64,000 nucleotides of DNA, from assembly GCF_000760215.1 (NCBI RefSeq), contig NZ_JNAW01000002.1, forward strand, positions 62,001 through 126,000. Direction: 5' to 3'. Position numbers and translations under genes: made by a program. Of this stretch, positions 32,267-55,137 are shown one piece after another; positions within the stretch are counted from its first letter, which is position 1; each line of letters begins with the position of its first letter. This stretch comes from Prochlorococcus sp. MIT 0603 (GTDB taxonomy: Bacteria; Cyanobacteriota; Cyanobacteriia; PCC-6307; Cyanobiaceae). The notes under the pieces were generated by a model. That model worked only from the letters and a program-made list of their open reading frames with translations. It was not told the DNA's origin and did no database searches.

Positions 32267-32340
32267 CGGGACCGACGGGATTCGAACCCGCAACTTCCGC
32301 CGTGACAGGGCGGTGCTCTAACCAGTTGAACTACGGTCCC
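32267..32340 (-). tRNA. tRNA-Asp (GTC)
   Basis: On the minus strand the acceptor arms GGGACCG and CGGTCCC pair, the anticodon stem-loop CCGCC CTGTCAC GGCGG exposes GTC, and the T-arm GCGGGTTCGAATCCCGT is canonical. Discriminator is G. CCA is not encoded. It lies 21 bp upstream of the gltX start, so the two may share a transcript. Confidence 0.97.
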
Positions 32341-32739: not shown

Positions 32740-32812
32740 CGCGCCGTGGAGGACTTGAACCCCCGACATCAGGTTTTGGAGACCTGCGTTCTACCAACTG
32801 AACTAACGGCGC
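32740..32812 (-). tRNA. tRNA-Trp (CCA)
   Basis: On the minus strand GCGCCGT pairs with ACGGCGC. The anticodon stem-loop CAGGT CTCCAAA ACCTG exposes CCA, and the T-arm GGGGGTTCAAGTCCTCC is canonical. Discriminator G. It lies 61 bp after rplS in transcription order. CCA is not encoded. Confidence 0.97.
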
Positions 32813-51230: not shown

Positions 51231-52502
51231 TTACTTGATGTATTCCTTGAGGACGCCATTCCGATTTGGGTGACGTAGCTTTCGTAGTGCTTTTGCTTCA
51301 ATCTGTCGGATTCTTTCTCGAGTTACATCAAAGATTTGTCCAATCTCTTCGAGAGTTTTCATGCGCCCGTCATCAAGTCCATAACGTAATCTCAATACAT
51401 CTCTTTCTCTAGGGCTAAGAGTTGCAAGAACCCCCTCTAGATCTTCTCTGAGGAGGGTTTTTGCTACGTCTAATTCAGGATTTTCTGAATCGGACTCAAT
51501 AAAGTCGCCCAGGCGTGAATCTTCTTCCTTCCCAATAGGAGTCTCAAGTGATATGGGTAGTTGTGCGCTTTTGGCTATGAATCGAAGCTTTTCTATTGTC
51601 ATTTCCATGCTTTCTGCAATTTCTTCTTCACTTGGTTTCCTTCCAAACTCTTGGCTAAGAACTTTTGTGGTTTTTTTGATTCTTGAAATCGTTTCATATA
51701 GGTGTACAGGAAGTCTTATTGTGCGACTTTGATCTGCAATGGCTCTCGTGATTGCCTGACGAATCCACCAAGTTGCATAAGTGGAAAATTTATAGCCTTT
51801 TTCATGATCAAATTTCTCAGCAGCACGAATTAATCCCAAGCTTCCTTCTTGAATTAGATCTTGGAAAGAAAGGCCTCTATTCATATATTTTTTTGCTATA
51901 GACACTACTAATCTGAGGTTTGATTGCACCATCTTTTCTTTTGCGCGTCTGGCAAGCATTAACCTTCGACGGAATCTGGCCATTGGCATGTTTACTAAGG
52001 CTGCCCATTCCTTTTTAGTTGGATAATGGCCATGCTCACTTTCAAATTGAATAGCAAGTTCTTCTAAATGCAAAAGATCCGCAATTTTTCGAGCAAGTTC
52101 AATTTCTTCGTCAGGCCTAAGTAGTCTTATCCGGCCAATCTCTTGTAAATAAACTCTTATGGAGTCTTCTGTATAGACGCCTTTCGGCCCAAGCTTGATG
52201 CTGGCCAAGGCTTTGTCTTTATCACTGAGTTCGCTAAGAAGTGAGTCGTTTTGTAATTCTAATTCAGAGTCAGGGACGCTTGGGTTGTTATTTGCATCAT
52301 TTGCATTTAGCAGATCATCTGCAGCAAGCTCTAGATCTTTATCGATTTTATTTGTAATAACTGTTTTTTTCTTTGGCTTTGTTTTCCTTTGAGTTTTCTG
52401 GTTTTCATTAGAAGTGTTTTTAAGAACGCTTTTAGCTTTCTTGGTTTTAGTTGCTTTAGTCTCTTCCTTGGCAACAGTTTCTGGAGAGGTGACAGGGGAC
52501 AT
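51231..52502 (-). CDS. rpoD: RNA polymerase principal sigma factor (RpoD/SigA)
   Basis: Group 1 sigma-70. Region 1.2 is [22 protein letters not shown]; region 2 has [39 protein letters not shown] and [19 protein letters not shown]; region 4 has [22 protein letters not shown]. 423 residues. The N-terminal 100 residues are a low-complexity Lys/Thr/Asn stretch in place of a conserved region 1.1, which is usual for cyanobacterial SigA. Its upstream region borders the GC-rich structured locus. Confidence 0.96.
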
Positions 52503-52878
52503 TTTTAAAGAAGCAAAAAGGACAAAAATCTCTAAATATATTTATTTTTCTTACTTGTTTGATCTCGGTAACAATTTACTTAAGATTGAAAATGTCTAAA
52601 TTTAAAACAAAAGTCAAATAACCTCTGATTGGTAAATGTACTTATTGAAAATAAAGACAATGAACCTTTATGAAATTGTGAAATGAAAAAGGGTTTTGCG
52701 ATTAGTACAGAATTGTTAGGGGCTTTCGTAGGCAGGCTTGGGATCCCTGGGGGCTTCCCCCAGGTTGCCGAGCTTCTTACCTTCCCTCTGAACAGGAATT
52801 CTGTATTGTTCAGATAACAGCATTATGCTGTAACTCTTTAAGTTTATGAAAATTTTCTGAAGTAGGCAACTGTTTTCT
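52503..52878. other. Divergent intergenic region rpoD/priA
   Basis: 376 bases. It contains the rod-like GC-rich structure at 52706-52805, a second inverted repeat CTGAACA...TGTTCAG at 52788-52813, and a small hairpin ACAGCA-TTA-TGCTGT at 52817-52831. The rest is AT-rich and should carry the rpoD promoter and the priA leader. Confidence 0.6.
52706..52805. ncRNA. Candidate structured RNA: 100-nt rod-like hairpin
   Basis: Successive pairing blocks nest from outside to inside: TACAGAATT/AATTCTGTA (52706-52714 with 52797-52805), GTT/AAC, AGGGG/TCCCT, GTAGG/CTTAC, GCTTGG/CCGAGC, and the apical CCTGGGGG/CCCCCAGG around a CTT loop (52746-52764). About 36 base pairs, including G-U pairs, in 100 nt. 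It is much more GC-rich than its flanks. The size recalls 4.5S SRP or 6S RNA, but I do not see the conserved SRP apical loop motif on either strand. Strand unknown. Confidence 0.5.
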
Positions 52879-55137
52879 ATGCGAATTAAGGAAATAGATG
52901 TATGGCTTGATGTTGGCAGAGAAGGCCGTTGCTTTAGTTATCTTGATTCTGATGACTTAGGTGTAGGTGTTGGAGACATTGTTCTAGTGAGTCTAAAAGG
53001 AAGAGCAATGCATGGACTTGCGGTAAAGGTTAAAGACCTTTTGCCATCTTCAAGAGTCAAGAATGAAGAGCAAGAAGGGAAATTTGTAATGAGCAATATT
53101 CAAGCCCTTGTTCAAAAAGCAGCAGTGGAATCTAGCTGGAGAGAGTGGATCGAATCCTCGGCTCAGAAGTGCCATGTTGCCCCTTTGAAGATGCTTAAGA
53201 CGGCATTGCCACCTGGTTGGTTTGGCCAGGTGAAGGATAAGAACTTTGAACCAAAAAGCTTGTTTTGGATTTCTTTAAATACTTTGAATGCTTCTCTTGG
53301 AGAACTTTCTTCTAGGCAAAAAGATTTAAAGGAATTTATATTAAATAATGGAGGAGGAGTCTGGCAGCAAAAACTTCTGTCAAATGGATTCTCTTTCTCT
53401 TTTGTAAAAGCATCTCTTCAGAGTGGGTTAATTATTCGACAGAAGCGCTTTGTTATTGATAAGAGCAAGTTGACAACAGTTAAAGAGGGTTTGCCCTCTA
53501 GTCACATATCATCATCACGCTGTCTGACTAATGAGCAAAAAAGTGCATTGCAACTTTTTGAAGAGCAATTGCCTGGTTCTGCTCTTCTGCTATGGGGAGT
53601 TACTGGCTCTGGTAAAACCGAGGTTTATTTACAAATAGCAGAAAGAGAGTTGTCAAGAGGTAGACATTGTTTAATTCTTACACCTGAAATCGGATTAATC
53701 CCTCAACTTGTAGATAGATGTGTTAGCCGTTTTGGATCACATGTACTTGAATATCATAGTGGGTGCACTGAAAAACAAAGGGTTTCTGTATGGCAAAAGA
53801 TTTTAGGAGCTGATAGTCCATTTGTTGTAGTTGGTACTAGGTCGTCCATTTTTCTCCCTTTATTCCCTTTGGGCTTAATTGTCCTTGATGAGGAACATGA
53901 TAGTTCTTATAAGCAAGAGTCGCCAATGCCTTGTTATCACGCAAGAGAATTAGCGTTAGACCGTGCCAAAAAGACTGGAGCAAAAGTGGTCTTGGGAAGT
54001 GCTACTCCATCACTTGTTACATGGAAAAACCTAGTACCTCAAGGTACGATCTCCTTGGCCAGGTTAACTCGCCGGATAGCTGACAAACCGTTGCCATCAG
54101 TTGTAGTTGTAGATATGCGACAAGAGTTAGCGGATGGACATAGGCAATTGCTAAGCAGGCCTTTAATTGATCAACTCTCTTTATTGGAAAATTCAGAAGA
54201 TCAAGCTGTTATATTAGTGCCAAGGAGAGGCTACAACAGCTTTTTAAGTTGCCGTAGTTGTGGAGATGTAGTGCAGTGTCCGAATTGCGATGTGTCTCTA
54301 ACAGTTCATCAAGACCCACGTGGAAATAAATGGTTGAGATGTCATTGGTGTGACCATCGTGCAAGTATTGGTGTTAAGTGCAAGGAGTGTGGCTCAAATG
54401 CTTTTAAACCATTTGGGGCTGGGACACAACGCGTGATGGAGCATCTGGAGAGGGAGTTGAAAGGGTTAAGGCTGTTGCGATTTGATAGAGACACTACTCG
54501 TGGTCGAGATGGACACAGGCACCTATTAACTAAATTTGCTTCGGGCGAGGCCGATGTCCTTATTGGGACTCAAATGTTAGCGAAAGGCATGGATTTGCCA
54601 AGAGTTACTCTGGCAGTGGTGCTTGCTGCTGATGGGCTCTTGCACCGACCTGATTTGTTTGCAGAGGAACAAGCGTTGCAACTTTTCTTGCAATTAGCGG
54701 GTAGGGCAGGAAGAGGTGAAAAACCTGGCAAAGTTCTTGTTCAAACTTATTCACCAGATCACCCTGTTATCCGTCATCTTGTCGATGGAAGCTATGAGGA
54801 TTTCCTGAAAAAAGAATCTGTATTGAGGAGTAATGCAAGCTTAGTTCCTTACAGTCGGGCCTGTTTGATCCGAGTGTCAGGAGAATCGCCGTCTTTAACT
54901 GCAACTTCCGCAACGGCGATCGCCGAATGTATACGCCCTAAATGTAATGAAACTGGATGGATCCTTTTAGGACCTTCCCCTGCATTGGTTGAGAAGGTGG
55001 CAAGAAAAAGTCGATGGCAACTATTGCTTCATGGGCCAGAGGGAAGTCCTTTGCCTTTACCGCAAGGGGGTGAACTTTGGGAATGTCTCCCAAAAGGTGT
55101 CAATTTGTCGATTGACCCTGATCCTATTCAGCTTTAA
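52879..55137 (+). CDS. priA: Primosomal protein N' (PriA helicase)
   Basis: DNA helicase that restarts stalled replication forks. Walker A is LLWGVTGSGKTEVYLQIA around residue 235; the Walker B variant is IVLDEEHDSSYKQESP; GSATPSLVTW follows. Zinc-binding cysteines are in CRSCGDVVQCPNCDVSLTVH and CHWCDHRASIGVKCKECGS. C-terminal helicase segments include MLAKGMDLPRVTLAVVLAAD and QLAGRAGRGEKPGKVLVQTY. 752 residues. N-terminal 3'-DNA-binding domain is diverged. Confidence 0.96.
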   Translation: MRIKEIDVWLDVGREGRCFSYLDSDDLGVGVGDIVLVSLKGRAMHGLAVKVKDLLPSSRVKNEEQEGKFVMSNIQALVQKAAVESSWREWIESSAQKCHVAPLKMLKTALPPGWFGQVKDKNFEPKSLFWISLNTLNASLGELSSRQKDLKEFILNNGGGVWQQKLLSNGFSFSFVKASLQSGLIIRQKRFVIDKSKLTTVKEGLPSSHISSSRCLTNEQKSALQLFEEQLPGSALLLWGVTGSGKTEVYLQIAERELSRGRHCLILTPEIGLIPQLVDRCVSRFGSHVLEYHSGCTEKQRVSVWQKILGADSPFVVVGTRSSIFLPLFPLGLIVLDEEHDSSYKQESPMPCYHARELALDRAKKTGAKVVLGSATPSLVTWKNLVPQGTISLARLTRRIADKPLPSVVVVDMRQELADGHRQLLSRPLIDQLSLLENSEDQAVILVPRRGYNSFLSCRSCGDVVQCPNCDVSLTVHQDPRGNKWLRCHWCDHRASIGVKCKECGSNAFKPFGAGTQRVMEHLERELKGLRLLRFDRDTTRGRDGHRHLLTKFASGEADVLIGTQMLAKGMDLPRVTLAVVLAADGLLHRPDLFAEEQALQLFLQLAGRAGRGEKPGKVLVQTYSPDHPVIRHLVDGSYEDFLKKESVLRSNASLVPYSRACLIRVSGESPSLTATSATAIAECIRPKCNETGWILLGPSPALVEKVARKSRWQLLLHGPEGSPLPLPQGGELWECLPKGVNLSIDPDPIQL

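Follow-up and report, generated by a model that had tools for sequence, protein, structure and literature searches.

The window analysed here is a 64,000-nucleotide stretch of the Prochlorococcus sp. MIT 0603 genome, and the locus under study is the region between rpoD, on the minus strand, and its divergent neighbour priA, on the plus strand (Table 1). An earlier note, made from the letters alone, had described the segment 52706-52805 in this region as a GC-rich rod of 100 nt without a protein frame, either an uncharacterised small RNA or a strongly diverged SRP or 6S RNA. The open reading frame list of the window agrees with it on coding capacity, as no ORF of at least 60 aa covers the segment. 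Two ordinary tRNA genes on the minus strand, at 32267-32340 and 32740-32812, are the sole Rfam hits of the window.

Table 1. Features of the rpoD-priA region, in coordinates of the window
Feature	Position	Strand	Basis and remarks
rpoD, principal sigma factor (SigA)	51231..52502	-	ORF list; downstream of the RNA, same strand
Spacer, RNA to rpoD start codon	52503..52704	-	no conserved promoter and no terminator found
Structured RNA	52706..52834	-	covariance model and alignment; putative start ~52834, conserved structure ends ~52706
Helix P0, 3' strand AUUCUGUA	52706..52713	-	long-range; covariation and the window's own fold
Asymmetric internal loop UACGAAAG	52723..52730	-	alignment; UGAGAAAG in most relatives
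Apical stem-loop with 8-bp GC stem	52746..52764		strain-specific tip, not conserved in the alignment
P3, 5' strand (AGGU)	52779..52782	-	partner 52730-52733
P1, 5' strand (UGUUcAGaGGG)	52784..52794	-	inner GGG/CCC pairs invariant
Hairpin 2, this strain (CUGAACA/UGUUCAG)	52788..52813	-	sequence
Helix P0, 5' strand UACAGAAU	52798..52805	-	long-range; covariation
Hairpin 1, near 5' end (ACAGCA/UGCUGU)	52817..52831	-	97% of cells paired
-10 element TAAACT	52841..52846	-	TAnnnT, 17 nt from the -35
-35 element TTGCCT	52864..52869	-	TTGCnn kept here in priA-rpoD spacers
priA, divergent neighbour	52879..55137	+	ORF list; query for fetching 80 loci

Folding of the 100-nt segment confirmed a single rod, both on the plus strand (-49.7 kcal/mol, z -4.4, with 0 of 200 shuffles as good) and on the minus strand (-37.9 kcal/mol, z -2.6). 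The 8-bp GC stem that the earlier note had placed at its end (CCTGGGGG/CCCCCAGG) is present, with its two sides at 52746-52753 and 52757-52764, but this GC-rich tip is private to the strain and the conserved parts lie elsewhere, namely in the base of the rod, in the asymmetric internal loop and in 5' hairpins outside the coordinates first reported. The rod stands while its extent does not: blastn recovered the region from the genome of the window and from 12 relatives, 13 genomes in total, with the match extending past the reported end toward priA, and the functional unit covers approximately 52706-52834, together with a promoter reaching out to 52869. The covariance model matches the window at 52834-52705 on the minus strand with 104 bits, and the RNA, ≈130 nt in length, is directed from the priA side to rpoD.

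On the minus strand the order of the elements is hairpin 1, hairpin 2, P0, P1, the asymmetric internal loop, P3 and the variable tip. Hairpin 1 has changes on both sides at two of its pairs and also forms when the window sequence is folded by itself. Hairpin 2 corresponds to GGAAC/GUUCC in the relatives (82% paired); the 5' strand of P0 is contained in its loop, while the 3' strand of the hairpin is in competition with the outer part of P1. P0 joins this loop to the 3' end of the RNA in a pseudoknot-like closure; one of its pairs occurs as GC, AU, CG and UA, and AU/UA exchanges were found as well. In P3, which reads AGAC in most relatives, 93.5% of the cells are paired and four pairs show both-sided changes. 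The 3' strand of the internal loop is UGAGA in most sequences, UGCGA in those that are Cyanobium-like, UACGA in the window and UGGAA in a diverged genus, all of which would fit U-[GA]-N-R-A, the pattern of a T-loop.

In an alignment of 28 sequences 94.6% of the cells pair, compared with 90.7% in shuffles, and with 72 sequences the corresponding numbers are 90.8% and 84.3%, falling to 29-44% when the 3' partners were slid by one to three columns, a control that favours the structure since it was chosen by viewing the same sequences. Moreover, both sides are changed in 99 cells of the paired columns in these 72 sequences, against 26.7 in shuffles that take no account of relatedness, and none of 500 shuffles reached 99. 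Compensatory changes hence lie above both the shuffled and the slid controls. Some members deviate in part: in a Synechococcus group (L062-L085) and in one genus (g9; L158-L162) the RNA is rebuilt in its 5' half, with one hairpin instead of two or a diverged form, and the same members retain the promoter and the long-range helix, and in two Cyanobium-type loci (L087 and L095) the variable rod tip is longer by ≈45 nt.

Among 80 sequences, the window plus 79 loci, 79 have the sigma70 pattern TTGCnn-N17-TAnnnT 5' of the RNA (they are related, and the counts are therefore not independent), where 0.32 would be expected from mononucleotide shuffles, and the 80th sequence has the same promoter with an 18-nt spacer. 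The T, the A and the last T of the -10 element are invariant in all 80 spacers, and the hexamers are constant while the bases between them vary. We infer that this conserved promoter drives transcription of the minus strand from approximately position 52834.

To describe the distribution, 80 loci were retrieved via the PriA protein. The motif is present upstream of priA in 79 of these, the remaining locus starting inside priA. Upstream DNA of more than 900 bases is available for 76 loci, and in every one of them rpoD and priA diverge and rpoD lies downstream of the RNA on the same strand. Named carriers include Prochlorococcus, Synechococcus (among them WH7803), Cyanobium and Vulcanococcus. 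The covariance model detects one significant copy in the genome, and it was positive in 263 out of 300 genomes of the Prochlorococcus/Synechococcus/Cyanobium family, or 186 out of 197 near-complete ones; several near-complete family genomes that lack a model match still have, at the equivalent position, the promoter together with a fold that has diverged. A search of 390 genomes from the class gave 65 with a match, 64 in the family plus one borderline case outside it (G425, E 7e-4), which lies over an ORF, i.e. coding DNA, and was taken as a chance match. With respect to carriage by phages, the exact core is absent from viral contigs and no credible phage match was obtained, none of 25 short-pattern matches in that search having a match to the covariance model. 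Searches against Rfam 15 gave no match at gathering score at the locus, either in the window or in 15 relatives, an E-value search of three members gave none, and a search of the window at E 10 returned nothing credible at the locus. Taken together, we have little doubt that this is a real family of structured RNA that is absent from Rfam. The promoter, the covariation, the wide conservation and the lack of an Rfam match strongly support the suggestion of an uncharacterised RNA made in the earlier note; that it is a free-standing small RNA is less likely, because the RNA points at rpoD and has the sole conserved promoter ahead of that gene in most clades.

In all genomes examined that carry it, the RNA is positioned directly upstream of one gene, rpoD, and on the same strand, as would be seen for a cis-regulatory leader. 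We favour, with some reservation, the reading that in the Prochlorococcus/Synechococcus/Cyanobium family it constitutes a structured leader at the 5' end of the rpoD mRNA. Transcription starting at the conserved promoter would read through a spacer of 130 to 450 nt into rpoD, and the folded leader would consist of a hairpin at the 5' end, another whose loop pairs with the RNA's own 3' end, and the rod with the T-loop-like asymmetric loop. Most likely the amount of sigma factor would then be set via the stability or the translation of the rpoD mRNA, and the conserved internal loop may be where a protein, a ligand or a different segment of the RNA docks.

Between priA and the ATG of rpoD, four of five clades conserve no TAnnnT other than the -10 of the RNA. 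The fifth, a low-light clade, has further TAnnnT elements nearer rpoD because the entire spacer is well conserved there, and these elements could be a second promoter. In one low-light clade (L038-L053) the spacer upstream of rpoD has two stretches with hardly any changes, the palindrome GTGATttttcgcaagatttATCAC and the block TAAATAGTTTTTCCTGAAATATT...CTCTAGGAGATTC, possibly as a regulator site or a second promoter. Promoter patterns were found in the spacer at 10 loci compared with 12.6 expected from dinucleotide shuffles, i.e. no enrichment of the full pattern, which supersedes an apparent depletion relative to mononucleotide shuffles. A sole conserved -10 in most clades and a spacer that is not enriched for promoters therefore point to transcription of rpoD from the promoter of the RNA, with the proviso that the AT-rich spacers align poorly and a drifting promoter could escape detection.

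The foremost alternative, which we consider possible and clearly less probable than a leader, is a stand-alone small RNA that is transcribed from its own promoter, terminates at P0 or shortly beyond it and either works in trans or binds a protein, in which case rpoD would have a separate and poorly conserved promoter. The compact structure that P0 closes onto the RNA's own 3' end, and the presence of a promoter of its own, speak for this, as do the conserved TAnnnT elements nearer rpoD in one clade and the length of the spacer, with a median of 212 nt and poor conservation between clades; by comparison the median 5' UTR in Prochlorococcus is ≈29 nt (PMC3898218). On the other hand, the RNA is always located directly upstream of rpoD and in its orientation, a second copy is absent from the genome searched, and a proximal rpoD promoter is undetectable in four of the five clades. 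A terminator after the RNA was predicted at 8 of 80 loci (3.3 in shuffles) and is not conserved, but this does not decide between a leader and a small RNA since the known 6S RNA of the same family usually lacks one as well (a terminator in 5 of 28 by the identical scan). For an expression platform in the leader, neither a terminator nor a masked ribosome site was recognised, the terminator scan being one that also misses most 6S ends.

The minus strand is preferred here by giving the promoter and the asymmetry of wobble pairs more weight than the folding energies. A functional RNA on the plus strand, e.g. the leader of priA or a small RNA read from that strand, would agree with the more stable plus-strand fold in the window and with single-sequence lowest-energy folds, which favour this strand in most relatives tested (mean z -2.3 versus -1.5 for the minus strand). 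However, a plus-strand promoter at the other flank was found in only 1 of 80 sequences even by the looser TTGnnn-N17-TAnnnT test, while the minus-strand promoter is conserved and properly placed, and the ratios of G-U to A-C counted for the minus strand (hairpin 1, 25:1; P3, 12:5; hairpin 2, 24:11) argue for the minus strand. The outer part of P1 shows the opposite, with A-C exceeding G-U on the minus strand by 37:4, which we ascribe to hairpin 2 reaching across this part in some of the clades. We therefore regard a plus-strand RNA as very unlikely. Equally improbable is that the conserved unit acts as DNA, with folding a by-product of inverted repeats for a regulator in a divergent promoter region. 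The divergent arrangement of the two genes, the conserved promoter and the long inverted repeats would suit such a role, but compensatory changes are spread over many nested and crossing helices with G-U intermediates on one strand, which is expected of an RNA and not of protein-bound DNA. Finally, a mobile inverted-repeat element or a functionless isolated hairpin would explain the long nested inverted repeat, and can practically be dismissed given the single copy, the same place throughout the family and the covariation.

Our data raise the more tentative prospect, which we put forward as a rather doubtful one, that the rpoD leader is riboswitch-like or protein-sensing, with the T-loop-like element as its sensor, and so might control the housekeeping sigma factor across the picocyanobacterial family. 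If so, an RNA would tune transcription globally in the phototrophs that are most abundant in the ocean. Protein regulators are few in Prochlorococcus and marine Synechococcus, and an Rfam scan of the 5' UTRs of MED4 gave no conserved elements (PMC3898218). A family-wide structured RNA ahead of the gene for the principal sigma factor would provide a testable handle on the control of global transcription.

Among known RNAs, bacterial SRP RNA (RF00169), a rod of similar length, and 6S RNA (RF00013), likewise rod-like, known as Yfr7/SsaA in cyanobacteria and present in the same genomes with ~180 nt against ~130 nt here, gave no match at the locus. Both are found elsewhere in the same genome, the SRP gene at C3:63015-63111 and 6S RNA at C2:554378-554556, and the proposal of a strongly diverged SRP or 6S RNA is for that reason excluded. 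The Yfr RNAs (Yfr1-21, Yfr28-29, Yfr103 and Yfr106-108) are also conserved non-coding RNAs of picocyanobacteria; of these, Yfr103 is a multi-copy RNA of 290-328 nt, with seven paralogues in Synechococcus CC9605 (PMC5069720), and differs from the single-copy RNA of ~130 nt described here. None of the mapped Yfr loci consulted in two reports (PMC1242208, PMC2518516), a set without Yfr29 and Yfr106-108, is at rpoD-priA. In the open papers searched the RNA is undescribed, and an earlier detection of a transcript at this locus is possible. The T-loop pattern U-[GA]-N-R-A occurs also in the TPP riboswitch, whose T-loop junction the CUGAGA...CCC of the rpoD-priA RNA loop resembles. This is a likeness of motif and no evidence for TPP binding: the locus gave no match to the TPP riboswitch (RF00059) even with a threshold of E 10, the genome has its TPP riboswitch elsewhere, and TPP riboswitches are found in the context of thiamine genes whereas the gene downstream is rpoD in our case. 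Structured leaders are known for the enterobacterial alternative sigma factors encoded by rpoS and rpoH, and while no homology is claimed, and the gene here encodes the housekeeping sigma factor, the idea shared with those leaders is the control of a sigma factor at the level of RNA.
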